Source of the DNA: Bacteroidaceae bacterium
GTDB lineage: Bacteria; Bacteroidota; Bacteroidia; Bacteroidales; Bacteroidaceae
Direction: 5' to 3'
Assembly (NCBI GenBank): GCA_017649485.1
Contig: JAGCGS010000068.1
Span: 1-64,000, forward strand
DNA length: 64,000 nucleotides
Below the pieces are notes generated by a model that saw only the letters and a list, made by a program, of their open reading frames with translations, did not search any database and had not been told where the DNA came from. This document shows, in pieces, positions 35,050 to 64,000 of this stretch; position 1 is the stretch's first letter, and each line of letters begins with the position of its first letter. Made by a program: the position numbers and the translations under genes.

Positions 35050-38000
35050 ATGAAAAAGCTTTTAATTAACTCGGTTTATTCTTTGTGTGTCTGTTGTATG
35101 GCAATCTTGATGCCATTCGGCTTAACAGCTTGCAGCAATGATGAGTTTGCTGACTATAAGAAAGATGGAGACCTCAAGTCATTTACCTCTTTCACAGCTA
35201 CCCTTGACGATGTAGCAGGAACACGAGCATATTTGGATGCTGAGGCGTCCAATGGTATTAGACGAGCTCATTGGGAGACAGGTGATGTTATTTCTGTGTA
35301 TAGCGATACCGATAAGACACTGAGGGAGTTTGTGCTGACAGAACTCAATGAGAGTGGCGTTGGTACGTTCACGGGCAAGGGGATTACAGGCAATCAGTTC
35401 TATGCTGTATTTGCGCCAAACAAGGATGTCGAAGTTGATGCAGATGACCCTAATGTGGTTCACATTAAAGGTGCTGCTTCCAATATAGTTGCCGACCAAG
35501 GCACTGTTGCCAACTTTACTGCGCCTATGGTGGCAACCTCAACAGGCAGCTCGTTTTCATTCCAGCAGATAACAGGTCTTGTAAAGATAACTGTGGGTAA
35601 TGTCCATCAGGTTGATGATCTCTTTTTCAGAGGCAGTAATCTTGAACCGATAGGTGAGGATTACTTGGTAGATATGTCGGATAATAAGCCCGTATTAAAG
35701 CTTGATGAAGGAGCCAATTCAGTAGGTTTTGGTCAAATCATCAAGAATTTGGATGACAATTTTGTGGATGTTTATTACATCCTGCCTCCAATGGTGTTTG
35801 AGAACGGCTTCTTGCTTACTATCAGTGGTGTTTACAAGGACGGCAATGGCTTCGAGATTGACAAGAGCTATGATTCCCGCTTTGAGGTCAAGGCCGGCAG
35901 CATCTCTTCGTTCTCAATGGTGGATGTAAGTGCTGAGTTAGAGGCACAGGGTAGTGATGAAATCATTGTCTTTGGCGACCCAGTTGTTAAGCAGATTTGT
36001 GTGGAGAATTGGGATACTAATGGGGATGGCGAGCTGAGCTATAAAGAAGTTGCTGCAGTGACAGACATCGGTCAGTTATTTAGAGAAAATACCGATATTG
36101 AGTCTTTCGATGAGTTCCAGTATTTCACAGGTGTGACATCAATTGGTGAATGGGCTTTTGCAAATTGTAGTAGCCTAACCAACATAATGTTACCTGAGAG
36201 TGTGGCATCAATTAGTGATTGGTCTTTTGTAAGTTGCGTTAGCTTAACAAGCTTTATGATACCTATCAACGTGACCTCCATAGGCAATCATGCTATTCAG
36301 AATTGCAGTAACTTGACAAGCATTGTGATACCAAAGAATGTGGCATCCATCGGAGATTATGCTTTTGCTACTAACCGTAACTTGACCAACATTATAGTTG
36401 ATAAGAATAACAGTTATTATGATTCTAGGAATGACTGTAATGCAATAATAGAGACAAAGAGTAATACTTTAGTTACTGGATGCGTTTCTACAGTCATCCC
36501 TAACAGCGTAACATCCATTGGTAATTATGCCTTTTATTGTTGCAAAGGTTTGTTAAGCTTTCTGATACCAGAGAATGTGACATCAATTGGTGAATGGGCT
36601 TTTACACTTTGTAGTAACCTGACCAGTATAGAGATACCGAACAGCGTGACAACTATTGGCAATAATGCTTTTACAAGATGCAGTAGCCTAACCAGCCTTG
36701 AGATACCAGAGGGTGTGACCTCAATTGGTGTTTCTGCTTTTTCTAGCTGCATTAACCTAACAAGTGTTAAGATACTCGAAAGTGTAACTTCAATTGGTGC
36801 TTCTGCTTTTTCTGGTTGCAATAGTTTGACCAGCATTCTGTTACCAGAAAGTTTAACATCAATTAACCCTAGTACTTTTAGTGACTGTAGCAGCCTAACC
36901 AGCATTGTGATACCAGAGGGTGTGACATCAATTGGTCAATGGGCTTTTCAACGTTGCAGTAGTCTAACCAGCTTCACGTGCTTGGCTACTTCTCCGCCAA
37001 CAATAGATAGAAATGTGTTTAATGGAGTGACTAGCCCCATTTATGTCCCGGCCATCTCAGTAGAAGCCTATAAGGCAGCTGATGGATGGAGTAACTATGC
37101 ATCCCAAATAAAGGCAATCCCTCTAGATGGAAACATTGTTTTTGCAGACAATAATGTGAAAGCTATTTGCGTGGAGAATTGGGATACTAATGGGGATGGC
37201 GAATTGAGCTATGCAGAGGCTGCTGCAGTGACGGACATCGGTCAGTTATTTAGAGAAAATACCGATATTGAGTCTTTCGATGAGTTCCAGTATTTCACAG
37301 GTGTGACATCAATTGGTTTTGGTGCTTTTGATGCTTGCAGCAGCTTGGCGAGTATTGTGATACCCGAGGGTGTTACATCAATTGGCATATATGCTTTTAG
37401 AGGTTGTAGCAGCCTGATTAGCATTGGGATACCTGATGGTGTTACATCTATTGGTATTGGTTCTTTTGATGGTTGCAGCAGCTTGACCAGCATAGTAATA
37501 CCCGAGGGTGTGACGTCTATTGGTTCTAGTACTTTTATTCGTTGCAGCAGCCTGACCAGTATTAAGATACCCGAGGGTGTGACAGCAATTGGTAGTTATG
37601 CTTTTAATGGTTGCAGCAGCCTGACGATCATTGAGTTACCAGAGGGTGTGACATCTATTGACAAATTTGCTTTTTGGGGTTGCAGTAGCCTGACCGATTT
37701 TAAGATACCCGAGGGTGTTACATCAATTGGAGATCATGCTTTTTCTACTTGTAGCAGCCTGACTAACATTAAGATACCCGAGAGTGTTACTTACATTGGC
37801 ATTCTAACTTTTATGGGATGTAGCAGCCTGACCAGCATTGAGATACCTGAGAGGGTGACATCAATTGGTGATGGTGCTTTTGAAAGTTGCAGCAAATTGA
37901 CCAGCATTGAAATACCTGAAGGTGTTACATCTATTGGTGAACGAGCGTTTTATAATTGCAAGAGTTTGACTAGTTTTTCATGCTTGGCTACAACTCCGCC

Positions 38001-38130
38001 GACATTAGGTAGTTATGTATTTAATGGAGTGACTAGCCCCATTTATGTCCCAGCCGTTTCTGTAGATGCCTATAAGGCAGCTGATGGATGGAGGGACTAT
38101 GCTGACCGAATCCAGGCAATACCTGAATAA
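35050..38130 (+). CDS. BspA-type leucine-rich repeat surface lipoprotein with two EF-hand-like modules
   Basis: 1026 residues. Lipoprotein signal with Cys28 in FGLTACSND. Residues about 45-300 form a beta-rich domain resembling the fimbrillin/Mfa-like N-terminal domain (FTATLDDVAGTRAYLD, AHWETGDVISVYS). Two large modules follow, about 310-685 and 700-1025. Each opens with ICVENWDTNGDGELSY, a dockerin/EF-hand-like Ca2+ loop, then runs through many LRR_5 (BspA) repeats of about 23 residues (SLTSIEIPEGVTSIGDGAF), and closes with TSPIYVPA.SV.AYKAADGW. Such proteins mediate adhesion to host or other cells. The two modules are near-identical in places at DNA level. Confidence 0.9.
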   Translation: MKKLLINSVYSLCVCCMAILMPFGLTACSNDEFADYKKDGDLKSFTSFTATLDDVAGTRAYLDAEASNGIRRAHWETGDVISVYSDTDKTLREFVLTELNESGVGTFTGKGITGNQFYAVFAPNKDVEVDADDPNVVHIKGAASNIVADQGTVANFTAPMVATSTGSSFSFQQITGLVKITVGNVHQVDDLFFRGSNLEPIGEDYLVDMSDNKPVLKLDEGANSVGFGQIIKNLDDNFVDVYYILPPMVFENGFLLTISGVYKDGNGFEIDKSYDSRFEVKAGSISSFSMVDVSAELEAQGSDEIIVFGDPVVKQICVENWDTNGDGELSYKEVAAVTDIGQLFRENTDIESFDEFQYFTGVTSIGEWAFANCSSLTNIMLPESVASISDWSFVSCVSLTSFMIPINVTSIGNHAIQNCSNLTSIVIPKNVASIGDYAFATNRNLTNIIVDKNNSYYDSRNDCNAIIETKSNTLVTGCVSTVIPNSVTSIGNYAFYCCKGLLSFLIPENVTSIGEWAFTLCSNLTSIEIPNSVTTIGNNAFTRCSSLTSLEIPEGVTSIGVSAFSSCINLTSVKILESVTSIGASAFSGCNSLTSILLPESLTSINPSTFSDCSSLTSIVIPEGVTSIGQWAFQRCSSLTSFTCLATSPPTIDRNVFNGVTSPIYVPAISVEAYKAADGWSNYASQIKAIPLDGNIVFADNNVKAICVENWDTNGDGELSYAEAAAVTDIGQLFRENTDIESFDEFQYFTGVTSIGFGAFDACSSLASIVIPEGVTSIGIYAFRGCSSLISIGIPDGVTSIGIGSFDGCSSLTSIVIPEGVTSIGSSTFIRCSSLTSIKIPEGVTAIGSYAFNGCSSLTIIELPEGVTSIDKFAFWGCSSLTDFKIPEGVTSIGDHAFSTCSSLTNIKIPESVTYIGILTFMGCSSLTSIEIPERVTSIGDGAFESCSKLTSIEIPEGVTSIGERAFYNCKSLTSFSCLATTPPTLGSYVFNGVTSPIYVPAVSVDAYKAADGWRDYADRIQAIPE
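36001..36137 (+). repeat. EF-hand module, copy 1 of an internal duplication
   Basis: This stretch (from GTGGAGAATTGGGATACTAA) recurs at 37171-37307 with only a handful of differences, mostly in one short segment. A second duplicated block links 36975-37092 with 37980-38095. The arrangement implies duplication of a module of about 1.0-1.2 kb. Confidence 0.85.
37171..37307 (+). repeat. EF-hand module, copy 2 of the internal duplication
   Basis: Partner of 36001-36137, near-identical from the DTNGDGEL calcium-loop codons to the first LRR unit. Confidence 0.85.
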
Positions 38131-46807: not shown

Positions 46808-49036
46808 ATGAATGAGAAGCTGAAAACCATAGCAAATTCTTATGCTGAAGAGTATTGCAGCGACGCTATTTATCCTGCACACTTGTTTAAGGCAATCCTT
46901 CATCAAGAGATTGGTTTAGTGCACTTTATCGAGAAAGACCTCGATAAAGATTACTACTATCTGCAAGATTGGGCGGATGTGCAAATGCAAATGGCACCAA
47001 GGGCAGTGCGACCGATGCGTGACCTTGAATACAGTGCAGATTCCCAAGCTGTACTGGATGAATCTGAAAATTATATGGTGAAGTTTGGACTGGATGAATG
47101 TTCAGACGTTTGCGTTTTAGCCTCTTTGGTTACCCCAGGCGTGGGTTTCTCTTTTGATCAGCTCAAGACATTGCCACTTACTCCGTCAGACATCAGTGCT
47201 AAGATGGGAGGTGGCGTGAATGTGGAGGCACCTTATATGGAAGGTGCAGAACTGACAAAGAGAACAGGTTCTCCTTCTGGCAGAAATGCCGTTGCCAAGT
47301 ATTGTGTTGACAAAACGGCCGTGGCTCGTTCTGGTAATCTTGATCAGGTGATTGGTTTTGAGAAAGAAATTTCCATTATTTATGAAATTTTGGGTCGTAA
47401 GACCAAGGCTAATTTACTAATTACAGGTGAGGCTGGCGTTGGTAAGACCTCATTAGTGAACGGCTTTATTCAAGAGTTGGCGGCAGATCGTGTGCCTGGA
47501 TTCCTCAGTGATGCTATAGCCTATGAGTTGGATTTGGCTGCTTTGGGAGGTGATGCTCAATACAAAGGTGAGGTGGAAGATCGTTTCAAGAGCGTGATAA
47601 CAGAAATTGAGAATCTTCCGAATGCAGTGTTGATTGTAGAAACGATTGACAAGCTTTTTGATAAGCAAGGCTCTTTGTTTGGATGTTCTACACTTTTGAA
47701 AAATGAATTAAACAAAGGACGTTTACAATTGCTTTGCACCGCCAGCATAGATGGCTATACCAAAAATATAGAGACCGATAAAGAAATGGTTTCTAATTTG
47801 GAGAAGATTACAGTAGAAGAGCCTACGGCTGATCAGACAATGGAGATTCTGAAGGGTATAATGCCATCATACGAAGAGTATCATGGTTTGACCTTAGACG
47901 AGTCGGTTATGACTGAATCCATCCGTTTGGCTAAACGTTATCTGACAGATAAGTCTCTGCCTGCATCTGCTATTGACTTGATTGATAGAACTATGGCACA
48001 TGTGAAGGTGGAAAATGACTTGGGTGATGAAGAACAGATGCATACAGAGCTGAAGACTGATGACCTAAGTGCTGTGGTAGCTAAGCAAACAGGTATTCCT
48101 TTGGGTAAGGTACAGACTCAAGAGCGCGACCGCTTGATGGGTGGTGAGGAAGCGTTAAAGAAACGTGTCGTTGGACAGGATCATGCTGTGAAAAAGGTGC
48201 TTGATGCTGTGTATGAGGCTCGTTCAGGATTGAATAAGAAAGGTCAGCCTATGGGATCATTCTTCTTCCTCGGCCCTACAGGAACTGGTAAGACAGAACT
48301 TTCTAAGGCACTGGCAGAGTTCCTGTTCGGAGATGAAAGTGCCCTGTTGCGTTTCGATATGTCTGAGTTTAAGGAGGAACATTCTGTAGCTCTGCTATAC
48401 GGAGCGCCTCCGGGTTATGTGGGCTATGAAGAAGGAGGTTTGCTTGTGAACAAGATTCGCCAAACTCCGTACTCAGTAGTGCTATTTGATGAGATTGAGA
48501 AGGCGCACAAATCGGTGTTCGACCTCTTCCTCCAAATATTAGATGAAGGTAAGTTGCACGATCGTTTAGGACGTGTGGGGGATTTCTCTAATGCATTGAT
48601 CTTGTTTACATCAAACATCGGAGCACAGACTATTGTGGAGAAATTTAATAGTGGTGTGATACCTGAGAACAATGAGTTGATGGATATTATGCAGGGCTAC
48701 TTCCGTCCTGAGTTCCTGGCTCGTCTAACAGAAATAGTACCATTCTCACCAATTACTGATAAGACGGTAACTGCTATTTTCGATATCCACTTGAAGGGAT
48801 TGCTGAAGCTGTTGTCTGAACAGGATATCACTTTGGAACTTACACCCGAGGCTCGTGAAACAATCGCTTTGCGAGGTTACAATCAACAATATGGTGCACG
48901 TCCTATTTTGGGTATTATTCGTAAAGAACTTCGTCATCCGATATCGAAGATGATGATTGCGGGGAAGATTAAATCTGGCGATCATATCGTGGTTTCTATT
49001 GATCAAGAAGGAAATCCAATAATTGAAGTGAAATAA
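46808..49036 (+). CDS. tssH: T6SS AAA+ ATPase TssH/ClpV
   Basis: Hexameric unfoldase that disassembles the contracted TssBC sheath, 742 residues. N-domain about 1-150; AAA+ D1 with Walker A TGEAGVGKT (about 206) but a degenerate Walker B, VLIVETIDKLF, in place of the usual hhhhDE; D2 with GPTGTGKT (about 490), pore loop GAPPGYVGYEEGG and intact Walker B VVLFDEIE. It lacks the ClpB-type coiled-coil middle domain and is shorter than proteobacterial ClpV (about 870), closer to ClpA in size. D1 probably binds but does not hydrolyse ATP well. It heads an operon with tssB and tssC, which supports ClpV rather than ClpA/ClpC. Confidence 0.9.
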   Translation: MNEKLKTIANSYAEEYCSDAIYPAHLFKAILHQEIGLVHFIEKDLDKDYYYLQDWADVQMQMAPRAVRPMRDLEYSADSQAVLDESENYMVKFGLDECSDVCVLASLVTPGVGFSFDQLKTLPLTPSDISAKMGGGVNVEAPYMEGAELTKRTGSPSGRNAVAKYCVDKTAVARSGNLDQVIGFEKEISIIYEILGRKTKANLLITGEAGVGKTSLVNGFIQELAADRVPGFLSDAIAYELDLAALGGDAQYKGEVEDRFKSVITEIENLPNAVLIVETIDKLFDKQGSLFGCSTLLKNELNKGRLQLLCTASIDGYTKNIETDKEMVSNLEKITVEEPTADQTMEILKGIMPSYEEYHGLTLDESVMTESIRLAKRYLTDKSLPASAIDLIDRTMAHVKVENDLGDEEQMHTELKTDDLSAVVAKQTGIPLGKVQTQERDRLMGGEEALKKRVVGQDHAVKKVLDAVYEARSGLNKKGQPMGSFFFLGPTGTGKTELSKALAEFLFGDESALLRFDMSEFKEEHSVALLYGAPPGYVGYEEGGLLVNKIRQTPYSVVLFDEIEKAHKSVFDLFLQILDEGKLHDRLGRVGDFSNALILFTSNIGAQTIVEKFNSGVIPENNELMDIMQGYFRPEFLARLTEIVPFSPITDKTVTAIFDIHLKGLLKLLSEQDITLELTPEARETIALRGYNQQYGARPILGIIRKELRHPISKMMIAGKIKSGDHIVVSIDQEGNPIIEVK

Positions 49037-49061: not shown

Positions 49062-49529
49062 ATGGCAATGAAAGAAAATTTTATCTCCATGGCTCCAGAT
49101 GAGGAGTCCAGTGCAAAAGTCAGTCTGATTGATCAGAACAAGACGCTCATGATGGACCAGTACACTACTGATGTTGAGTCTGGTGCACCTGAATTAGTGG
49201 AAGATATTCAAAACATCAATGACGCATTCGAGCATTTCAAGCCGAAAGTGAACGTAACCTTTACAGATGAAGAGGGTGGTGCAGTTGAAGAAACTCTACG
49301 TTTCGGTGAGTTGCGAGATTTTGAGGCACAAGGTGGCAAAGGCCGTTTGGTAGAGAATAGCCCATTCTTGAGTGGTGTTAAAATGAAGATTGAAACTAAT
49401 GCAAAAATCCGTAAGAGCATAGAACAAAACCGTAAACTTCGTGACATCCTTAAGGAGGCAGGTTCTCGTGAAGAGTTGAAAGCTATGCTACAGTCTATGC
49501 TGGCTGAGTTAGAGGAAGCTAATAAGTAA
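49062..49529 (+). CDS. tssB: T6SS sheath small subunit TssB
   Basis: 155 residues. Matches the Bacteroidota (subtype iii) TssB family: FEHFKPKVNVTFTDEEGGAVEETLRFGELRDFEAQGG (read in parts) resembles the VipA pattern, with a helical C-terminus (IRKSIEQNRKLRDILKEAG). With TssC it builds the contractile sheath. It lies 25 nt after tssH and 18 nt before tssC. Confidence 0.92.
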   Translation: MAMKENFISMAPDEESSAKVSLIDQNKTLMMDQYTTDVESGAPELVEDIQNINDAFEHFKPKVNVTFTDEEGGAVEETLRFGELRDFEAQGGKGRLVENSPFLSGVKMKIETNAKIRKSIEQNRKLRDILKEAGSREELKAMLQSMLAELEEANK

Positions 49530-49547
49530 TTAAAAAATAATATAACT

Positions 49548-50915
49548 ATGGCAGATACTGAAATGCAGAAAGCACAGGTGGCCGGGCAGGCTGCAGGTGA
49601 GCTTCAAGAAAAAGCTGGACAGAAAGATGTATCCAAAATGCTGTCGGCATTTGGTGGTTTTAATGCAATTCGTGGCTTTATGCCTGACGCTGACAATATG
49701 AACCCAGCCAAGAAGGCGGCTAAAAACGTGTTCTTGTCTGACAAGAGGTTCAAAGGCAAACGTGAGGATTTGGCTCGTGAAATCTCCAGATGGCTTGAAC
49801 TTTTGGACACGGACATTGATACCGCTACAGGTTTTGCTGATGCCTGCAAGCAAGATGAGCAGAAATATACTGGCGTACTAAAGCAAGGTATTACCGACGC
49901 ACTCTATGCAACACAGGGTTTGGAACGTTCATATCGTGAACTTGACTCATTCTTTAAGACATGTGGTACCGATAAAGTTAAAAATTTGCGTGTTATCAAT
50001 GTACTGAAAGATGACATAGCCGATCCGGACTCTGGCTTTGCTCAGGAAGTGGAAGGGTTACTTCGCAATGGTTTTGACCGTCTGAGTTTGAAAGATGCTT
50101 ATAGCTTGGTGTGCGTACCAGGTGATGTGTTCAAAGACAAAGTAACCTTGTTGCAATGGGCTAAGATGGCGTTTAAGTACAAAGTGATGTTAGTAACTGA
50201 CCATGCTGACGAGTATTCATTTGATGACCTGAAAGACAACACTGAAGGTTATCGCGATAGCGATCAGGAACTAATGAACGTAGTGATGTGCGCAAACTGG
50301 ATTGTAGGTCGTGAGGCAGAAAAGATGTCGGCTGACGAAGAGGATGCCAAGGCTTTCTACATCGCTCCTGCAGCAGCTCTTTGTGGTAAGTTGTACGACG
50401 AGACAGCTAACATGGCTCAAGGCGCTGGTGGTAAGAAGTATGGTACATTGGATGGCGTGAAAGGTGTGAAACTAGATTTGCTGAAGTCGGAGATTGCTTC
50501 CCTGATGGATAACCAGGTGATTCCGATGGTATATAGTGAAGGTCGAGTAATGGCATTCAACAACACTACTTTATATAATGGTGACCTTGATGCTATGAAG
50601 GAATATCCTATCGTACGTGTGTTCGACTGGGTTAAGAAGGTACTGATGAACTTTGTGCATGAAGTGGCATTGGAGAACTGGGATCCTTACAATTCTCCAA
50701 AGAACCTGAAAGCAAAGATTCAGGAGTTCCTTAACATGTACAAGGGTTATGGAAATTTATTCCAAAATTACGAAATTGGCGAACCACGTCAGGATCCTGT
50801 TACTAAGCAAATTACTTGCGATATTACACTTACTCCATTCTATGCAGCAAAGAATTTCGTAATCAAGGTAGCTGCTGACAAGAAGGACAAAGAGGCAGCT
50901 TTAGCAAGTGCATAA
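49548..50915 (+). CDS. tssC: T6SS sheath large subunit TssC
   Basis: 455 residues, DUF5458-type TssC of Bacteroidota. Conserved stretches: KKAAKNVFLSDKRFKGKRE near the N-terminus, ENWDPYNSPKNLKAKIQEFL and a C-terminal ITLTPFYAAKNFVIKV corresponding to the sheath-handshake strands. Forms heterodimers with TssB that polymerise around the Hcp tube. Gap of 52 nt to the first hcp gene. Confidence 0.93.
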   Translation: MADTEMQKAQVAGQAAGELQEKAGQKDVSKMLSAFGGFNAIRGFMPDADNMNPAKKAAKNVFLSDKRFKGKREDLAREISRWLELLDTDIDTATGFADACKQDEQKYTGVLKQGITDALYATQGLERSYRELDSFFKTCGTDKVKNLRVINVLKDDIADPDSGFAQEVEGLLRNGFDRLSLKDAYSLVCVPGDVFKDKVTLLQWAKMAFKYKVMLVTDHADEYSFDDLKDNTEGYRDSDQELMNVVMCANWIVGREAEKMSADEEDAKAFYIAPAAALCGKLYDETANMAQGAGGKKYGTLDGVKGVKLDLLKSEIASLMDNQVIPMVYSEGRVMAFNNTTLYNGDLDAMKEYPIVRVFDWVKKVLMNFVHEVALENWDPYNSPKNLKAKIQEFLNMYKGYGNLFQNYEIGEPRQDPVTKQITCDITLTPFYAAKNFVIKVAADKKDKEAALASA

Positions 50916-50967: not shown

Positions 50968-51360
50968 ATGGCAAAAACACCAGTATCAATGAAAGTTGAC
51001 GGTTATAAAGACCGTGAAGTAATGATGGTATGTTACGAGTTTGAGCAGGAAACCGATGTTGAGGGTCAGATGAGTGGTATCCCTCGTGGCGGTAAAATTG
51101 TTGTTCGTGTAAAAGCTTTGAATGATGGTACTCCCGACCTGATGGCTTGGATGACGGAGCGCAATCTTGCGAAGGATGGTTCAATTGAGTTCTTGGAGAC
51201 TAAGACTGGTAAGGCAATGAAGACTATCAAATTTACTAAAGGTTATTGTGTAAACTTTGAGGAGAAGTGGGAAGACAAGATGGGTCACTTCGAAGAGATC
51301 GTCATCACCTGCCAGAATATTGAAGTTGGTTCTGTTAAGTTTGAGAATGAATGGGCTTAA
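50968..51360 (+). CDS. tssD: T6SS tube protein TssD/Hcp, copy 1
   Basis: 130 residues, Bacteroidota TssD fold: DREVMMVCYEFEQETDVEGQ, then SGIPRGGKIVVRVKAL and the end SVKFENEWA. It stacks as hexameric rings in the inner tube. Very similar in plan to the next gene, sharing SGIPRGG and the C-terminal FEN-W end. Separated from copy 2 by 63 nt without a terminator. Confidence 0.92.
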   Translation: MAKTPVSMKVDGYKDREVMMVCYEFEQETDVEGQMSGIPRGGKIVVRVKALNDGTPDLMAWMTERNLAKDGSIEFLETKTGKAMKTIKFTKGYCVNFEEKWEDKMGHFEEIVITCQNIEVGSVKFENEWA

Positions 51361-51423: not shown

Positions 51424-51822
51424 ATGGCAGAGAATGTAACACCTGTAACCCTCGAGGTTAAGGACTTTGCACCCCGTGAGGTAATTTTAGTTGATTACAA
51501 GTTCAATCAGGCAACTGATCGCGAAGGACAGATTTCTGGTATTCCCCGTGGCGGTAGAATAAACATCCGTGTGAAGGCTCTTAATGATGGTAATGCTCAA
51601 CTCCTTGGATGGATGCTTGAACCGACTGGCCCACGTGATTTCACCGTTAAGTTCCAAAATACCATAGACGGAAAGGATATGAAGCAGCTCAAGGGTACGG
51701 GTTGCTATTGCGTAAAGTATAAGGAATATTGGGCAGATGGCGAGGAACATTACGAGGATATTGAAATTGTTTGCCAGAAGTTGGAGAACGGTCCAGTTTC
51801 ATTTGAGAATCCTTGGAAGTAA
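51424..51822 (+). CDS. tssD: T6SS tube protein TssD/Hcp, copy 2
   Basis: 132 residues, paralogue of the preceding gene: APREVILVDYKFNQATDREGQ, SGIPRGGRINIRVKAL, SFENPWK. The two could form mixed tubes or carry different cargo. A strong terminator follows, so these sheath and tube genes can be made in larger amounts than the genes further down. Confidence 0.92.
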   Translation: MAENVTPVTLEVKDFAPREVILVDYKFNQATDREGQISGIPRGGRINIRVKALNDGNAQLLGWMLEPTGPRDFTVKFQNTIDGKDMKQLKGTGCYCVKYKEYWADGEEHYEDIEIVCQKLENGPVSFENPWK

Positions 51823-51919: not shown

Positions 51920-52339
51920 ATGGCTTTGACTGCAAAATTACAATTTGGAGACAATAAGAGTGGCCGATACCCAAGTGAGTATCTAGTAGCTGATTGTCAT
52001 TGCCATTTTGTTAGAGGTTACAATCATGCACAACCTGATTCTGACGCCCGTTGCGAAAGGGTGGATTTAACAGTGGTGGCTCCTAATAAAGAGAATCTTG
52101 CTCTCTATGATTGGTTCATTACTAATAGTGTCCAGTCAGGACGTATTGTGTTTGAAACTGTCAGTGTTGACAATAATGCATCTGATAGCAAAATCATAAC
52201 ATTCGATGATGCCTATTGCTATTCTTTAGCTGAGAACTATAAGATAGACATAGCAGAGCAAAGGCTTCTTAATCTTTCATTTGTTGCAGACAAAATTACT
52301 ATCAGTGGAATCCAATTTGATAATATTTTTTTTAGTTAA
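51920..52339 (+). CDS. tssD: Divergent Hcp/TssD-like protein
   Basis: 139 residues. Hcp-like pattern YLVADCHCHFVRGYNHAQ...VDLTVVAPNKENLALYDWFITN...SGRIVFE...DKITISGIQFDNIF, but with the usual GRPSGIPRGG loop replaced by DSDARCE. It lies 18 nt before vgrG. It is probably a specialised ring, for example the tube-spike junction or a cargo Hcp, rather than a bulk tube subunit; that role is inference. Confidence 0.8.
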   Translation: MALTAKLQFGDNKSGRYPSEYLVADCHCHFVRGYNHAQPDSDARCERVDLTVVAPNKENLALYDWFITNSVQSGRIVFETVSVDNNASDSKIITFDDAYCYSLAENYKIDIAEQRLLNLSFVADKITISGIQFDNIFFS

Positions 52340-58479: not shown

Positions 58480-58866
58480 ATGGGAAAGTTTGTATGTATG
58501 GGTGCAATGCTGCAATGCAGCTTCGGAATGGCTCCATCGTCATTGATGGTGATGATTCCTTTGCGTCCGAAAGCTCAGAATATGTTGATGGCTACAGTGA
58601 TGGACTTTGCTCCTATGACGAACATATTACCCTTTGGCATGTGTCAGTCGATGGCTAATCCTCAGGTGGCGGCAGCTACCTCGGCAGCGATGGGTGTGCT
58701 AACGCCTATGCCCTGCATACCTGCTATTACGGCTCCGTGGATGCCACCCAGCAAAGTATTGGTGATGAACCAGCCTGCCTTGTTGGACAATGGCAAATGT
58801 ATGTGCATGTGGGGTGGCCAGATCTCTATCACTAACCCAGGTAACATGATGGCTGAAGGGAAATGA
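58480..58866 (+). CDS. DUF4280 PAAR-like spike tip protein
   Basis: 128 residues. The N-terminus MGKFVCMGAMLQCSFGMAPSSL and later CMCMWGGQISITNPGN match the DUF4280 (PAAR-like) family, which caps contractile injection spikes and can bind effectors or a metal through its Cys/Met-rich loops. Ordinary PAAR proteins are about 90-100 residues. It lies between the beta-helical spike protein and the PEGA protein, overlapping the latter by 4 nt (ATGA). Confidence 0.88.
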   Translation: MGKFVCMGAMLQCSFGMAPSSLMVMIPLRPKAQNMLMATVMDFAPMTNILPFGMCQSMANPQVAAATSAAMGVLTPMPCIPAITAPWMPPSKVLVMNQPALLDNGKCMCMWGGQISITNPGNMMAEGK

Positions 58867-60230
58867 GGTGCCTTACCGTCATACTGTTTTCACTGCTGTT
58901 GCTACCAATACAGGCGCAACAGATAAAGGTGATCGATTTCCACAAATTGAAAAAAGGTCCCTTGAATATGTTGCATGTGGTGACAGAAAAGCGGCAAGCC
59001 ACTCTTGATTTGGTGACAACGGAAAAAGGATTTACCTTCTTGGCTAATGGTGTGACTGAATTGCAAGTTGAAGAAGGTGAAAAAGGCATTACCCTTAAGG
59101 TGCCTCACAAGACAACATTCTTTCTGATTAAGCACGATGAATTTGGCCAACTTTATTGGAAAGTGCCAGGCAGAAAAGGATTGAGGAAGAAAAAACGTTA
59201 TGAAGCACAACTGCTGACAAACAGTCGTGAGAAAGATTATAAGCTGCAAAGCCAGTGGGTGGTCTTTGAAATATTACCTGAAAATGCGATTGTGTATGTC
59301 GATAGTACTCAAACTGCTACTCGTAATGGAAGGGTACAACTGGAGCTTGCATTGGGTAAGCATCCTTATACGGTGTTATCGCCTTTCCACGAACAACAGG
59401 ATGGTGTGCTGGAGGTTAAAGAGGAAGAAAAGCTAACTGTGAGTGTGTCTTTACAGCCTATCTATGCTTACCTGACAGTAAAGACCCCGCAAGAGGGTGG
59501 AGAGATTTTGATTGACGGCATGACCATCGGTTTTACGGAAGCTACTAGTGGAAGGTTAGCTGAAGGTATCCACCAACTAAGGGTAATGAAAGATGATGTT
59601 TGCTGGTATGAGGCAGATATTGAGATGGGGAAAGCCGAAAAAAAAACCTTGGAACTATCTACTGACGACCTCTATCCACGATGGCGTAAGAAAACATTGA
59701 ATTATGCTCTGACTGATGGATTTTCGTCAAGAACCATTGAAGACAGATCTGTTGCGGGACAGGTGGCAGATAGTGCTGTTATTGGGGATGTTAAGACTGC
59801 TTTGGTTACAATAACTGCTCCTAACGAATCTACAGAGATATGGATTAATAGGGAACTGTTAGGTACCGGCCAATGGGAAGGTAAGTTGACAAAAGGCTTC
59901 TATGCAGTGACTACCCGGGCTGAGGGCATAGAGTCTGTTCCTCATTATTTGTGGATTGAAGATGAGTCTCCTCAGCAGTTGGATTTATCCTCTACAATGG
60001 CTGATTATGGTTATTTAAGTATTCACTGCAACGAGGTGGATGCAGACATATATATTAATGGTGCTGCAAGCGGGCGCACCCCCTCTATGACTGGGAAACT
60101 TTTGGCAGGTAAAACCTATAGTGTGAGATTGACCAAGCCTGGTTTTAAGGATGTTTCTAAGCAGGTGAAGGTGATAGGTAATACACTGACGGATGTTAAA
60201 TTGAAATTGAAGAAAAATAAAAAAAGATAA
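58863..60230 (+). CDS. Exported PEGA-repeat protein in the T6SS operon
   Basis: 455 residues. Signal peptide MRCLTVILFSLLLLPIQAQQ, a first beta-rich region (21-130), then PEGA-like domains at about 130-195 (ENAIVYVDSTQ), 198-270 (GGEILIDGMTIGFTEATSG), 310-375 (STEIWINRELLGTGQW) and 380-450 (DADIYINGAASGRTPSMTG). PEGA domains are small surface-layer-like folds. Being exported while its neighbours are cytosolic, it may form an envelope collar or anchor for the apparatus, in place of TssL/TssM/TssJ, which subtype iii lacks; this is inference. Confidence 0.75.
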   Translation: MRCLTVILFSLLLLPIQAQQIKVIDFHKLKKGPLNMLHVVTEKRQATLDLVTTEKGFTFLANGVTELQVEEGEKGITLKVPHKTTFFLIKHDEFGQLYWKVPGRKGLRKKKRYEAQLLTNSREKDYKLQSQWVVFEILPENAIVYVDSTQTATRNGRVQLELALGKHPYTVLSPFHEQQDGVLEVKEEEKLTVSVSLQPIYAYLTVKTPQEGGEILIDGMTIGFTEATSGRLAEGIHQLRVMKDDVCWYEADIEMGKAEKKTLELSTDDLYPRWRKKTLNYALTDGFSSRTIEDRSVAGQVADSAVIGDVKTALVTITAPNESTEIWINRELLGTGQWEGKLTKGFYAVTTRAEGIESVPHYLWIEDESPQQLDLSSTMADYGYLSIHCNEVDADIYINGAASGRTPSMTGKLLAGKTYSVRLTKPGFKDVSKQVKVIGNTLTDVKLKLKKNKKR

Positions 60231-60235
60231 TTGTT

Positions 60236-60940
60236 ATGAGAAAGGCTGTAGTAACGCTTATTGGTGAGATGAAAAACAAAATGGGTGGTTATGCCGTACT
60301 GCTACAGTACAGGTATATGAACTTGTGTATCAAGGCGGAACCAGCCTCTTTGCTTTCTTTGGAGGTGGTTGATGGCGAGGAAGAAAAGCATATCTTTGAA
60401 GAAACGGCATTTGCCATGCTGATAAATGATTTTCAGTTTGAAATAGTTCCGAAGGAGAATGAACTGCTTTTCCCAATATGCAGGGCTTTGATGAAAACTC
60501 ATCCTGAATTTAAGCAGGAAGTATTAACTGCTGAAAAAGAAGACAGACTGAATATAGATGATGAGGAAGAGAAACACATCATTGTTACAATGCCCGAAGT
60601 AGATAAGAACCGTCGTGACTTGTTAATGAATGCCGTATCCACTTTGTACGACGAATGTGGGGTACAACTTGACAAGGCGAAAGGGGATTATACCAATAGG
60701 TTACTCTCGAAGATGGCAGGAGAGAGCCCTAATGATATTGATGAAGCAAAGAATAGTTTGGAAGATGCTTACAACCAACATAAAGACATTATCAAAACCT
60801 ATCGGGAGAATAAGGAAAATGAGATTGAGGAGGCTTACCAAAAATGGCTGACGAAACAAGAGGCGAAAGAGCAAGAGCAGCAGGAGAAAGATGAGGCAAT
60901 GGGAGAGAAAGCTGCCAAGTCGTTGAATTTTGATAATTGA
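60236..60940 (+). CDS. T6SS operon protein with ribosome-recycling-factor-like helical region
   Basis: 234 residues, cytosolic, strongly acidic and helical in the second half. Residues about 115-205 (IIVTMPEVDKNRRDLLMNAV onward, to ENKENEIEEAYQK) follow the pattern of the C-terminal half of ribosome recycling factor (I.V.LP.LTEERRK.L ... KE.E). The N-terminal 110 residues (MRKAVVTLIGEMKNKMGGYA) are unrecognised and beta/alpha mixed. It ends in NFDN. It lies just upstream of the E1-like gene and may be its substrate or a baseplate factor; neither is shown. Confidence 0.5.
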   Translation: MRKAVVTLIGEMKNKMGGYAVLLQYRYMNLCIKAEPASLLSLEVVDGEEEKHIFEETAFAMLINDFQFEIVPKENELLFPICRALMKTHPEFKQEVLTAEKEDRLNIDDEEEKHIIVTMPEVDKNRRDLLMNAVSTLYDECGVQLDKAKGDYTNRLLSKMAGESPNDIDEAKNSLEDAYNQHKDIIKTYRENKENEIEEAYQKWLTKQEAKEQEQQEKDEAMGEKAAKSLNFDN

Positions 60941-60970
60941 TGTGGAGTTAAGAATTGAGAGTAATTGTCA

Positions 60971-62095
60971 ATGGTTAATGGTCAATGGTCATTTGAGCGA
61001 AGTACCAGAGTTATGGTGGTAGGATGCGGAGCCTTAGGAAACGAGGTGTTGAAGAACTTAACGCTGATGGGAGTACAACATATCGTGGCTGTGGATTTTG
61101 ACCATGTGGAGATTGGCAACCTGACACGTTCAGTACTGTTCAGAAAAGGTGATGCGTTGGCTGGACGATATAAGACTGATGTTATTGCGGAAAGGCTTAG
61201 GGAACTGAATCCGCAAATAGATATAAAGCCCATTATAGGTAATATTGCATACGATGTGGGCTTGGGATTGGTGAGGCAGATGGATGTCGTTATTGGTTGT
61301 GTAGATAGCCAATGGGCACGTTTCTGTATCAACCGCCTTTGCATGAGGGCAGGAGTACCTTGGGTAGATGGTGGTATAAGTGAGTTGGAAGGTACTGCCA
61401 GGGTGTTTGTACCTGGAGTGAACTGTTATGCATGCAATATGGGGTCTGAAGGTTTGAAAGATTTAAAGCGGAGGATGCCTTGCTCGGGCATAATTCGAAG
61501 ACATGAGGAAGCTGGTTCTGTGCCAACTACTTCCCTGATTGCCTCTATAATTGGAGCTGTGCAGGTGCAGGAAGCTTTGAAATTGGTACAGGCTGAAGCG
61601 TTGGCTGATGGTAGTATAGAATCACTATGTGGCAAGATGTTTTATTATGAAGGAGAACATCTGACGAATAGATTAGTAGAATTTAAGGCATGGGATGAAG
61701 ACTGTGCTGAGCATGAACGTTGGGAACCAGTTGTGCAAACAGGGGTACATCTATCCATGACAGTGTCTGAGGCGTTGTCAATTTTACGTAACGAACTGGC
61801 TGCTCAAGAAGTAGAGATAAGCTTACGTAATGATTGTTTTGTGGATTTTGTGATGGAACGTGCTACCGATAGTCAATGGGAAGTGATGTTGCCTGGTAGA
61901 GCTGTTGAAGATTTTGTGATGCAGCATGAAAGATTAGGAGGAATCCCACTAAGTGGACTGTATCAACATGAGCTCAGACGCATTGGCAATAGATTCCCTT
62001 ATCAGGATCTGACGCTAAAGGCTTTAGGCTTACCTGGACAAGATGTTCTCTGCGTGATGGCTGATGGTACAGAACGATTTGTAGAAATGAAATGA
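60971..62095 (+). CDS. E1-like ubiquitin-activating enzyme homologue (UBA3/MoeB/ThiF superfamily) in the T6SS operon
   Basis: 374 residues, cytosolic. Adenylation domain: VVGCGALGNEVLKNL (nucleotide loop, 16-30), DFDHVEIGNLTRSVLF, and DVVIGCVDSQWARFCIN. DGGISELEGTARVFVPG and CYAC (Cys152/Cys155) follow as in eukaryotic E1s, with a second likely Zn pair CAEH (Cys245/His248). Cys171 in MPCSGII is at the catalytic-cysteine place. Residues about 258-374, ending TLKALGLPGQDVLCVMADG, resemble the ubiquitin-fold domain of UBA3-type E1s, which recruits E2; MoeB and ThiF lack it. No E2, JAB protease or Gly-Gly-ending partner is seen in the window. ATG 60971 preferred to TTG 60965. The stop overlaps the next start (ATGA). 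Confidence 0.85.
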   Translation: MVNGQWSFERSTRVMVVGCGALGNEVLKNLTLMGVQHIVAVDFDHVEIGNLTRSVLFRKGDALAGRYKTDVIAERLRELNPQIDIKPIIGNIAYDVGLGLVRQMDVVIGCVDSQWARFCINRLCMRAGVPWVDGGISELEGTARVFVPGVNCYACNMGSEGLKDLKRRMPCSGIIRRHEEAGSVPTTSLIASIIGAVQVQEALKLVQAEALADGSIESLCGKMFYYEGEHLTNRLVEFKAWDEDCAEHERWEPVVQTGVHLSMTVSEALSILRNELAAQEVEISLRNDCFVDFVMERATDSQWEVMLPGRAVEDFVMQHERLGGIPLSGLYQHELRRIGNRFPYQDLTLKALGLPGQDVLCVMADGTERFVEMK

Positions 62096-62880
62096 ATATT
62101 GATAATAACATATCGCATATCAGGGCAGAGGTACTGTTAAATCGCCTTTTTCCAGAGTTTGAACAACAATGGAGGGTGCGTAACTTGGGCTCTTTCTATC
62201 GCAACTATACCCAAGATATTTTGTTTCTGGATGAAGAAACAAAAGAATTGGAAATGAGTCGTAACGGCTTATTAAACCTGCTGCCAGAAGGACTTTATAA
62301 TAGTCAGGAAGAACTGAAGGGTGAGGATATGCGCGAGAAATTCAAGGAGTTGGAAGAACGCATCAAACTCCTTAGAGAGGCGTTTATGCCGATAGATACC
62401 TATTGGTTTAAACAAAGCCTTTTGGTTGAACGACAGGTGTGTGAGTTGTTGGAAGATAAGTTGGACTATGTGTTGCGCACCTATTTTGATTTTGATATGA
62501 GCCAAGAGAAAGACCCGTTGGTAAAAGAAGTGGCTGTTATGTTGCCATTCATAAGTTGCAAACGAGGTGACTTTGGTTTCGTGCGACAGTTGTTAGAGAC
62601 CTTACTGCATTGTCAGGTGATTATGGATACGTGTAGATATAGTCATACCGACAATACTGTCAGGTGGCTGCCAATGGTGCGATATGATTTGGTGCTGCCT
62701 GGGCTATCAGCTGAGGAGTATAAGAAGAAGAATGAGGCATTGGAATCGTTGAGGGAGTTTATTATTGAGTGGTTCATTCCCATGGAAGTGGAGTGTGTTA
62801 TATTGGTGAAGGAGTTTGGAGTTCCCCAGCAAACCGACTCACGATTGGTGTTGGACTATAATACAGAGACAAAATATTAG
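62092..62880 (+). CDS. Candidate T6SS baseplate wedge protein (TssF/TssG-like position)
   Basis: 262 residues, no signal peptide. N-terminus: EVLLNRLFPEFEQQWRVRNL, then SRNGLLNLLPEGLYNSQEEL, then a helical segment (REKFKELEERIKLLREAF); the second half is VRQLLETLLHCQVIMDT and a mixed end. The pattern of a short beta start, a LLPEGL segment and a following helical arm recalls phage/T6SS wedge proteins, and it lies directly before tssK, where TssF/TssG belong. Identity is not proven from sequence. Translationally coupled to the E1-like gene by ATGA overlap. Confidence 0.5.
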   Translation: MNIDNNISHIRAEVLLNRLFPEFEQQWRVRNLGSFYRNYTQDILFLDEETKELEMSRNGLLNLLPEGLYNSQEELKGEDMREKFKELEERIKLLREAFMPIDTYWFKQSLLVERQVCELLEDKLDYVLRTYFDFDMSQEKDPLVKEVAVMLPFISCKRGDFGFVRQLLETLLHCQVIMDTCRYSHTDNTVRWLPMVRYDLVLPGLSAEEYKKKNEALESLREFIIEWFIPMEVECVILVKEFGVPQQTDSRLVLDYNTETKY

Positions 62881-62916: not shown

Positions 62917-64000
62917 ATGGATATAAATTCAAGAATTAATTGGAAGCCGGGAATGGAGATTACCGCTAAAACTATGCGAGGCATGGCCATTGCAGATGAC
63001 ATGAGGCATCGTATAGCTTTGCGGGCGGCCATTGGTGCAGTACGCATGGGCAGGCTGCCTGATATGCCATTCAATTGCAATGGCGTATTTGTTAAGAACC
63101 ATTTTGAGGCCGACCATTTTAGGTGCATGGCCTTGCTTCCCTCTGGCAGGATAGTAGATGCTGAAGAAGACATCAACGTAGATATTCCGATGCTGTTTGG
63201 TGACCGCTATTACTTGACAGTGGGTATAGTTGATGAGCAACGTGAGTATGAGAGCGAGGGAATTCCCTATGTGACATCTCGCTATAGATACGGTATCCAT
63301 TCTCAAGAAGAGATAGAGCAAGGTGACTTACTGCCTCTGGTGCGCTTCAAGGCTAAAGATGGGTTGCTTAGCATGGAAACCGACTTTATGCCACCGTGTT
63401 TAGTGTTGGACTCAGATGATCGTTTTAGGATTTATGCCGATAAATATACAGCTCACATCGACAGGTTGGCACATCATCCTAACCTTGAAGAAGGAGAAGG
63501 AAAGCGTACCTTGCTACATTATCTGTTCCTTTTGAAAGGCTATGATATGCGTGGCAGTGTGCAAGGTTTTGTAACCTTGATGCATGAGATTGCACAAGCT
63601 ATCGCCTACTATATTTTGTCGAAACATCAAGAGAATCCGGTAGATGTTCCACAAGTCTCTTATGTCGATATCCAACTGTGGTTGCAATGGCTTGATGATT
63701 ATTTCTCGGGAACAGCCACTTTGCTTGATGGAGTAGTGTTGGTTGATAACACCATCGATTATGAGGCATTGCTGGCACAGGCAAAAGCTGAGCTTTATAG
63801 CCGCTTGCATCCTGAATTGATAGAGAAGCTAATAGCTGATATGAGGGAGGAACTGAAGGCAGAAGTGAAGCGTAAGTCAGATGAGATAACCATTTTCATC
63901 AACGAAACACTCAGAAATGAATTGGAGAAGCATTTGACAGATCTTTTGCAGGATAAAGCTCAACAGATGAATAACGAACTGAATGAACATGTTATACAGA
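62917..64000 (+). CDS. tssK: T6SS baseplate protein TssK (partial, cut by window edge)
   Basis: The first 361 codons are present; no stop before the edge. The start MDINSRINWKPGMEITAKTM shows the TssK pattern I-W-x-x-GM at the N-terminus. Further marks are GDRYYLTVGIVDEQREYES (shoulder domain) and LSMETDFMPPCLVL (the xFIPP-like motif of TssK). TssK links the baseplate to the membrane-side complex. RBS-like AGGAAGAG lies 8 bp upstream of the ATG. A helical Glu/Lys-rich segment is near the cut. Other subtype iii genes (TssE, TssF, TssN-TssR) are probably beyond the edge. Confidence 0.85.
   Translation, partial: MDINSRINWKPGMEITAKTMRGMAIADDMRHRIALRAAIGAVRMGRLPDMPFNCNGVFVKNHFEADHFRCMALLPSGRIVDAEEDINVDIPMLFGDRYYLTVGIVDEQREYESEGIPYVTSRYRYGIHSQEEIEQGDLLPLVRFKAKDGLLSMETDFMPPCLVLDSDDRFRIYADKYTAHIDRLAHHPNLEEGEGKRTLLHYLFLLKGYDMRGSVQGFVTLMHEIAQAIAYYILSKHQENPVDVPQVSYVDIQLWLQWLDDYFSGTATLLDGVVLVDNTIDYEALLAQAKAELYSRLHPELIEKLIADMREELKAEVKRKSDEITIFINETLRNELEKHLTDLLQDKAQQMNNELNEHVIQ

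Follow-up and report, generated by a model that had tools for sequence, protein, structure and literature searches.

A putative ubiquitin-like conjugation cascade encoded in a type VI secretion operon of Bacteroidales

Introduction

Sets of genes for E1, E2, and RING proteins and a ubiquitin-like protein (Ubl) are already known from bacteria, and in 2011 Burroughs, Iyer and Aravind reportedly described bacterial E1-E2-RING sets with YukD-like Ubls. An E1 of the UBA3 type forms a heterodimer with an inactive APPBP1-like partner. The present analysis concerns an E1-like gene in a stretch of 64,000 nucleotides (positions 1 to 64,000 of the forward strand of contig JAGCGS010000068.1, GenBank assembly GCA_017649485.1; hereafter the window) from a Bacteroidaceae bacterium. 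The gene lies in a predicted operon of a type VI secretion system (T6SS) together with genes for an E2-like protein, a Ubl, and a membrane protein with RING and putative FHA domains (RING-FHA), and this arrangement recurs in other Bacteroidales. The 2011 sets are said to resemble it in having a separate E1 with a C-terminal extension, an E2, a prokaryotic RING, and a YukD-like Ubl, and some of the RING and Ubl members analyzed here match the Prok-RING and YukD models; the set described here differs from them by its location in a T6SS baseplate operon across the Bacteroidales.

T6SSiii has been stated to be the sole T6SS type in the Bacteroidota, with a membrane complex or a part of it in all these systems, and its membrane protein TssN has been proposed to dock the baseplate via a ubiquitin-like domain (Bongiovanni, 2024; PMC10781749). 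The loci described here do not fit this statement as regards TssN. With the Bacteroidota T6SSiii (GA1–GA3; Coyne, 2016; Bongiovanni, 2024) the locus in the window shares the core of sheath, tube, spike, and baseplate, and its TssC matches the Bacteroidota TssC model (PF17541), but it has no detectable TssN, its TssC reaches only 333 bits as compared to approximately 750 bits in TssN-containing genomes, and it carries the E1, E2, Ubl, and RING genes. FHA proteins and phosphorylation are known controls of T6SS assembly; PpkA and Fha control the assembly of TssK, and further post-translational systems are expected (reviewed in PMC10433429). The likeness to PpkA-PppA-Fha1 of proteobacterial T6SS, a functional analogy only, lies in post-translational control at the membrane-baseplate step involving FHA (PMC10433429), whereas the modifier in the present case would be a protein instead of phosphate, and none of the three kinase matches in the genome is located on the same contig. 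The cyclic-oligonucleotide-based antiphage signaling system (CBASS) with its Cap2 protein and the Bil/Bub systems are similar in their bacterial E1-E2-Ubl chemistry; here, in contrast, E1 and E2 are separate, a RING is present, no JAB was found, and the context is a T6SS.

No description of an E1-E2-Ubl-RING set inside a T6SS was found in the accessible parts of the T6SS, ubiquitin-like protein, and Bacteroidota literature searched, including PMC10781749, PMC3482391, and PMC7159879, an earlier notice being possible, with Burroughs 2011 lying outside this search. The terms ‘ubiquitin’ and ‘ThiF’ have 0 occurrences in the main texts of Coyne (2016) and Coyne (2021), and the set is not described in the accessible portions of Zhang (2012), Iyer (2006), a 2020 survey of conflict systems, and a 2024 review.

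Results and Discussion

A conserved gene set in T6SS loci

The E1-like gene belongs to a co-directional run of 21 genes, which extends from a ClpV-like gene at 46,808 to the gene of an 822-residue membrane protein ending at 71,707, 7.7 kb past the window. The contig (C10) has a length of 140,518 bp and the same coordinates as the window, and positions 60,001–100,000 were examined for genes to the right. Gaps between the 21 genes measure 97 bp at most, and 36 bp at most from E1 through RING-FHA. The run is assigned to a T6SS from the matches of TssC, of the OB domain of VgrG, and of gp25/TssE, together with a weak TssK match (E-values in Table 1). An E2-like protein and a small protein ending in Gly are encoded 4.2–5.2 kb to the right of E1 in the same run.

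To cover other species, one genome per species was scanned with an E1 alignment, which yielded at least 593 pattern matches, 545 of them encoding a relative (tblastn, E ≤ 1e-3). The best 80 of these 545 loci were used; the remaining 465 may include plain ThiF-family proteins. Since the loci were picked by E1 similarity alone, linkage to T6SS genes is not built into the sample. According to tblastn, the best 80 loci contained orf262 in 80 cases, TssK in 79, TssE in 76, TssF in 75, Ubl in 73, E2 in 72, orf386 in 70, RING-FHA in 69, and orf292 in 68. The gene order E1-orf262-TssK-TssE-TssF-Ubl-E2-orf386-orf292-RING was uninterrupted in 79/80 loci as far as the DNA extends, and all ten genes were found in 68. 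In the one deviating locus (L105), Ubl, E2, and RING precede E1, and orf386 and orf292 are without a match. In the loci without Ubl (7) or without E2 (8) the DNA ends within 4.6 kb to the right of E1, and E2 was present in 72/72 loci with enough DNA on this side. A binning artefact is unlikely because the locus is carried by strain-named records, namely Xylanibacter ruminicola D31d, Bacteroides mediterraneensis An793, Millionella massiliensis Marseille-P3215T, Mediterranea massiliensis Marseille-P2645T, Parabacteroides distasonis An863, and Prevotella sp. ne3005, and for the same reason the locus should be testable. The stable association with T6SS genes in other Bacteroidales agrees with the original prediction, made from the letters of the window, that E1 is not a passenger in this operon.

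The residues expected to matter for conjugation are invariant in these loci: Cys171, C152, C155, C245, and H248 of E1 (81/81 sequences, own copies included in this and the following counts), H111-P-N-I114 and Cys125 of E2 (73/73), Gly105 of the Ubl (74/74, with two residues beyond Gly in L105), and the RING ligands C446, C449, C463, H465, H468, C471, C479, and C486 (68/68). Pairwise distances of E1 correlated with those of TssF (r = 0.89), TssK (0.88), the PEGA-domain protein (0.87), E2 (0.85), RING-FHA (0.78), Ubl (0.67), VgrG (0.62), and Hcp2 (0.38), proteins that differ in rate and sampling. A control with shuffled labels was passed by all 14 proteins including Hcp2 and VgrG (0/200 each), and the correlations therefore demonstrate shared descent of the loci and not function. 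The lowest mean pairwise distance of 15 proteins was that of the Ubl (0.24), followed among the values compared by Hcp2 (0.26) and E1 (about 0.42), with partly different loci underlying these means.

The E1-like enzyme

The E1-like open reading frame (ORF) has its ATG at 60,971 and its stop codon at 62,093–62,095 and codes for 374 amino acids; a mechanical ORF call gave TTG at 60,965, six bases upstream, as alternative start. The protein belongs to the ThiF family (Pfam ThiF, E = 1.6e-48; 24/24 E1 members scanned also match), and five further genomes in the family sample encode full-length orthologs with 39–56% identity. Because of this match and these orthologs the gene is not a chance ORF. 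Its 3' end overlaps the ATG of orf262 at 62,092 by ATGA. The gene and this overlap thus are as the original prediction had them, and all claimed motifs were recovered in the translation, i.e., GCGALG, D42-F-D44..E47..N50-L51..R53, C152-x2-C155, Cys171, C245-x2-H248, and TLKALGLPGQDVLCVMADG; the last of these had been taken for the C-terminal ending, which in fact reads ...TERFVEMK.

Among NCBIfam models, ThiF and MoeB come closest, each matched far below its own cut-off. An E1 profile matched UBA7/UBA6 (E-values, as sums of two halves, of 7e-30 to 3e-27) and UBA2 (2.5e-26), and somewhat more weakly MccB and MoeB (approximately 1e-23), ThiF (2.4e-21), and UBA3 itself (1e-21). Fifteen picked E1s separated from 10 ThiF-family paralogs in a tree, as a clade with a split support of 1.000. 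Cys171 was found in 15/15 of these E1s and in none of the 10 paralogs at the aligned column, as was His248, where the paralogs have a gap; the first three Cys of the Zn type are kept in 7/10 paralogs. Lack of conservation of the catalytic Cys in orthologs had been named beforehand as a refuting result and did not occur, the presumed catalytic Cys171 being invariant in all 81 E1s noted above. These features support a distinction between this E1 and plain MoeB/ThiF. No second E1-like gene, as would be the partner in a heterodimer of the UBA3 type, was seen in the T6SS run, and the one other E1-like match in the own genome is weak (E = 1.4e-8).

The C-terminal ~115 residues may form a ubiquitin-fold domain (UFD) like that of UBA3, an identity that is not claimed here. 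HHalign of a 24-row alignment of this region against a UBA3 UFD sequence gave a score of 15.0, which was exceeded by 6/100 shuffles and is not significant. With 82 rows, from which L079, L081, L099, and L102 had been excluded beforehand and to which five E1s of other lineages had been added, the score against the same sequence rose to 18.4, which none of 60 shuffles attained (p = 0.009), but with a probability of 4.5% over 33 columns this is suggestive at most. Pfam gave no match for 4/4 segments at E-values up to 10.

Ubl, E2, and RING-FHA

The original prediction had envisaged an E2 to the right of the window, and the protein found there has the stretch YP...PP.F.F.T...HPNI...GRVC, with HPNI followed by the Cys, and matches UQ_con. 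Pfam scans of single members (E ≤ 0.1), which were subsets of the 73 E2, 74 Ubl, 68 RING, and 81 E1 rows with own copies included, gave UQ_con for 22/23 E2, Rad60-SLD for 13/15, ubiquitin for 7/15, and YukD for 4/15 Ubl, and both Prok-RING_1 and zf-RING_2 for 17/17 and FHA for 6/17 RING-FHA proteins. Against solved structures the E2 profile had no significant match, the best being E2-25K (E = 0.06). The Ubl, which ends in ...DPFPG (i.e., Pro-Gly), obtained low E-values against solved structures as sums over polyubiquitin repeats, with singly non-significant stretches of 19 residues; the value of 0.0019 over 32 positions against designed ubiquitin variants is not used as proof, and HHalign with a ubiquitin sequence gave a probability of 49% over 19 columns. 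The Rad60-SLD, ubiquitin, and YukD matches weakly suggest a beta-grasp fold.

RING-FHA begins with a signal containing Cys29 (66/67), followed by 367 presumably periplasmic residues and seven hydrophobic segments. Its RING has the pattern C-x2-C-x13-C-x-H-x2-H-x2-C-x7-C-x6-C. Among the loops assigned to the cytoplasm, the RING loop has four basic residues within its first 20 positions and the next two loops have five and four, whereas three periplasmic loops have one each. Contrary to this rule, the FHA tail starts with 20 residues of which one is basic, and three basic residues fall within the final 20 of the periplasmic part. Assuming alternation, RING and FHA are predicted to lie on the cytoplasmic side. 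An equivalence of RING-FHA to TssN was considered and rejected: HHalign gave a probability of 15.7% over 41 columns of a hydrophobic stretch with 12% identity, the best of ten proteins and unconvincing.

Co-occurrence across genomes and other forms of the locus

Of 201 family genomes, 15 had E1-type matches (E ≤ 1e-20), six of which are full-length and nine partial and ThiF-like. E2 occurred in exactly the six genomes with full-length E1, which would have a chance of 1e-11 if the genomes were independent, and they are not. TssC was found in 16 of the 201 genomes and TssN above the cut-off in five. All six E1 genomes, including that of the window, have TssC and no TssN match, and the five TssN genomes have TssC (745–759 bits) and no E1. 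Mutual exclusion of E1 and TssN is not accepted on this basis, as the lack of overlap in the 16 TssC genomes has a chance of 0.058 and is a pattern that does not reach significance. Five TssC genomes have neither E1 nor TssN (G013, G041, G098, G168, and G196); the loci of G013 and G196 were inspected, as was a contig of 11 kb from G098. In a sample of 296 genomes of the phylum, TssN above the cut-off occurred in 17 in all and TssC in 18, of which 16 have TssN; the exceptions are the own genome (G000) and G223. E1 at E ≤ 1e-40 was found in four phylum genomes, three of which (G264, G358, and G380) lack a PF17541 match.

In G264 and G358, E1, Ubl, E2, a secreted protein, and a membrane protein related to RING-FHA are encoded beside a gene judged PAAR-like by eye, with no match to the sheath and baseplate profiles built here within 40 kb. 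Only three of the eight ligands are retained in their RING region, which by eye has a U-box-like appearance. Nearby in these genomes (L118–L121) are a gene that by eye resembles one for an ion channel and two ORFs of 2887 and 1766 residues. G380 encodes a Ubl ending in ...TAGSIHR, an E1, and a small RING-like protein (L122, 17,812–20,137), with no E2 match within 32 kb. The module thus occurs independently of a T6SS as well, and also where no canonical RING is present. The order in a second T6SS lineage (G113 and G122, with G033 partly in view) is Ubl-E2-three genes-RING-FHA-E1-orf262-TssK-TssE-TssF, followed in G122 by genes for a glucosaminidase, a Ser/Thr kinase, and a PP2C phosphatase. The key residues of E1, E2, and Ubl are kept in G113/G122 and in G264/G358, and the RING ligands in G113/G122. 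In G013 (L106–L107) and G196 (L111–L112) the present profiles detect the orf262/TssK/TssE/TssF core, with TssE at no better than approximately 5e-5; the Ubl set is missing locally, and neither E2 (genome-wide, E ≤ 1e-10) nor TssN was found. Pfam matches around the core of G013, the only one of the two so annotated, comprise Ser/Thr kinases, PP2C, FHA, and FHA-trypsin proteins.

Proposed role and alternatives

We favor, with a probability of roughly 0.6, the explanation that E1 is part of a Ubl cascade that is built into a distinct Bacteroidales T6SS and would switch assembly or firing by tagging components of the baseplate or the membrane complex. This explanation builds on the gene set with its constant linkage, the invariant key residues, and the co-occurrence described above; the sequence of enzymatic steps, the conjugation, the topology, the substrates, and the regulatory role are predicted. 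E1 would adenylate the C-terminal Gly of the 105-residue Ubl and then take the Ubl on Cys171, from which it would pass to Cys125 of E2. The predicted cytoplasmic RING of the multi-pass RING-FHA protein would recruit the Ubl-loaded E2 to substrates where membrane and baseplate meet, most likely T6SS baseplate or membrane-complex proteins (TssK, TssF, orf262, or orf386/orf292), and tagging could act as a switch analogous to threonine phosphorylation by PpkA-PppA-Fha. A regulatory role is preferred because kinases and PP2C are encoded next to the Ubl set in one related T6SS locus (G122) and together with FHA proteins in another that lacks this set (G013), so that Ubl tagging seems either to accompany phosphorylation control or to replace it. 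The presence of Ubl, E2, and RING genes in the same T6SS operon largely supports the linkage to conjugation proposed in the original prediction; that T6SS parts are modified is what we still infer.

Several observations weigh against this explanation. Genetic linkage is silent on which protein is tagged. The Ubl ends in Pro-Gly, and of the small Gly-Gly protein expected to the right of the window only the terminal Gly was borne out. E2, Ubl, and RING of the window genome match Pfam below the curated cut-offs, its own RING-FHA copy has no FHA match at E ≤ 0.1, and the signs of a UFD in E1 are suggestive at most. The JAB protease that had also been envisaged was not encountered, as the own genome (82.6% complete) has no Prok-JAB match above the cut-off and the scanned operon proteins contain no JAB, which leaves reversibility unsupported. 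The RING seems not to be needed in every relative, given the 3/8 ligands of G264/G358, and the Ubl set appears dispensable in the wider T6SS group, as G013 and G196 do without it.

A use of the cascade for tagging cargo, whereby Ubl conjugated to effectors or to Hcp, VgrG, or PAAR would mark them for loading or delivery and be carried into target cells, is suggested by the position of E1 in the window, with the VgrG/PAAR/PEGA block on one side and the baseplate block on the other, and by a distance correlation with PEGA as strong as that with TssK. It is nevertheless unlikely, since Ubl, E2, and RING are grouped with TssK/E/F and putative envelope proteins in an order fixed in 79/80 loci, whereas the VgrG/orf234/PAAR block varies or does not adjoin; the correlations of E1 with VgrG and Hcp2 are lower than those with TssK and TssF, yet that with the Ubl is close to the VgrG value. 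We are equally skeptical of a non-covalent role, with Ubl and E2-like protein as a baseplate or membrane scaffold and catalysis vestigial or confined to E1. The docking proposed for the ubiquitin-like domain of TssN (PMC10781749) would suit such a scaffold in a locus without detectable TssN, as would the loss of most RING ligands in G264/G358, but a pure scaffold would not need the E1 Cys, the E2 Cys and HPNI, the RING ligands, and the terminal Gly of the Ubl, all invariant in T6SS loci, and the match between TssN and the RING-FHA profile is unconvincing.

The chemistry is also that of known bacterial E1-E2 defense systems such as Bil and Bub, from which a Bil- or CBASS-like anti-phage module residing in the T6SS locus as a passenger could be imagined. 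Such a module is very improbable in view of the fixed position of E2 in the baseplate-operon order of 71 loci and of the separate E1 and E2 genes, which differ from a Cap2-type fusion. No cyclase, E2-E1 fusion, or JAB was detected in 16 scanned proteins of the 21-gene run (ClpV, TssB, and the three Hcp were left out), and E2 had no match (E ≤ 0.01) in 50,697 phage and 72,556 plasmid records, indicating only that it is not common there. Least credible is sulfur-carrier or cofactor chemistry by a ThiF/MoeB-type enzyme with coincidental operon neighbors. The nearest NCBIfam models point in this direction, but the separate clade, the ~115 extra C-terminal residues, the contrast between E1s and paralogs at Cys171, and the E2 in every sufficiently long locus argue against it.

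If the favored cascade exists, bacterial ubiquitin-like conjugation with separate E1, E2, and RING would not be confined to phage defense or scattered operons. It would represent a new mode of T6SS control, a stable secretion-machine component in gut and rumen Bacteroidales, and a tractable bacterial model for RING-driven tagging that controls a large assembly. More tentatively, the Bacteroidota may hold at least one T6SS type beyond the TssN-based T6SSiii with a tagging cascade as its core, in which the RING-FHA lipoprotein would serve as membrane anchor and, with E1 and E2, conjugate Ubl to baseplate proteins, licensing docking or firing. A contractile weapon would then be under true ubiquitin-like conjugation through a full E1-E2-RING pathway outside defense. 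The favored cascade, if real, would also revise the view of the TssN-type T6SSiii as the phylum's sole T6SS type, as published in PMC10781749.

Genomic context

The features of the run are listed in Table 1. No match to TssO, TssP, TssQ, or TssR was obtained in Pfam scans of the operon proteins. Identification of orf262 as TssG was not upheld by a Pfam TssG match, and the name remains a positional guess. The orf234 gene goes along with VgrG/orf656 and not with E1, and its product matches ribosome recycling factor weakly (1.3e-5, below the cut-off).

Table 1. Predicted genes of the T6SS run, with coordinates on the contig and basis of assignment (relatives, the best 80 loci).
Feature	Coordinates	Strand	Basis and remarks
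ClpV/TssH-like ATPase, first gene of T6SS run	46808..49036	+	ORF; named by position/sequence; matched in other loci by profiles built here
TssB-like sheath protein	49062..49529	+	ORF between ClpV and TssC; named by position/sequence; matched in other loci
TssC sheath protein	49548..50915	+	Pfam PF17541, E = 2.5e-99
Three Hcp-like genes	50968–51360, 51424–51822, 51920–52339	+	Named by position/sequence; present in relatives
VgrG-like spike, 1374 aa	52358..56482	+	Pfam Phage_base_V (OB domain), 1.5e-14
DUF4280 protein, PAAR-like	58480..58866	+	Pfam DUF4280, 6.6e-33; NCBIfam IglG, 7e-11, below model cut-off
PEGA-domain protein, signal-peptide-like start	58863..60230	+	Pfam PEGA, 5.8e-26; in 63/80 relatives
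orf234	60236..60940	+	Paralog in second VgrG cluster; variable position in relatives, 54/80
E1-like enzyme	60971..62095	+	Adenylation domain ~10–250; presumed Zn ligands C152/C155/C245/H248; Cys171 in catalytic position; ~115-residue C-terminal domain
orf262, TssG position, putative baseplate protein (name inferred)	62092..62880	+	ATGA overlap with E1; 80/80 relatives
TssK-like baseplate protein	62917–64119 (window ends at 64000)	+	NCBIfam TIGR03353, E = 7e-4, below cut-off; 79/80 relatives
TssE	64127–64582	+	GPW_gp25, 2.7e-8
TssF-like	64584–66296	+	Named by position/sequence
Ubl, 105 aa	66301–66618	+	Rad60-SLD, 0.016, below cut-off
E2-like, 191 aa	66642–67217	+	UQ_con, 6.3e-4, below cut-off
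orf386, putative envelope protein	67201–68361	+	ORF
orf292, putative envelope protein	68346–69224	+	ORF
RING-FHA membrane protein, 822 aa	69239–71707	+	zf-RING_2, 9.8e-4, below cut-off

A second cluster of Hcp3, VgrG, orf656, and orf234 is located on the minus strand of the same contig at approximately 79.7–87.7 kb; the first ~150 residues of its VgrG form a separate ORF, and the same split is seen in genome G034. At 76,174–76,816, likewise on the minus strand, two adjacent small genes resemble by eye a nucleotidyltransferase-HEPN toxin-antitoxin pair. In the window itself, positions 35,050–38,130 encode a 1026-residue repeat protein with leucine-rich repeats that appear BspA-like by eye.

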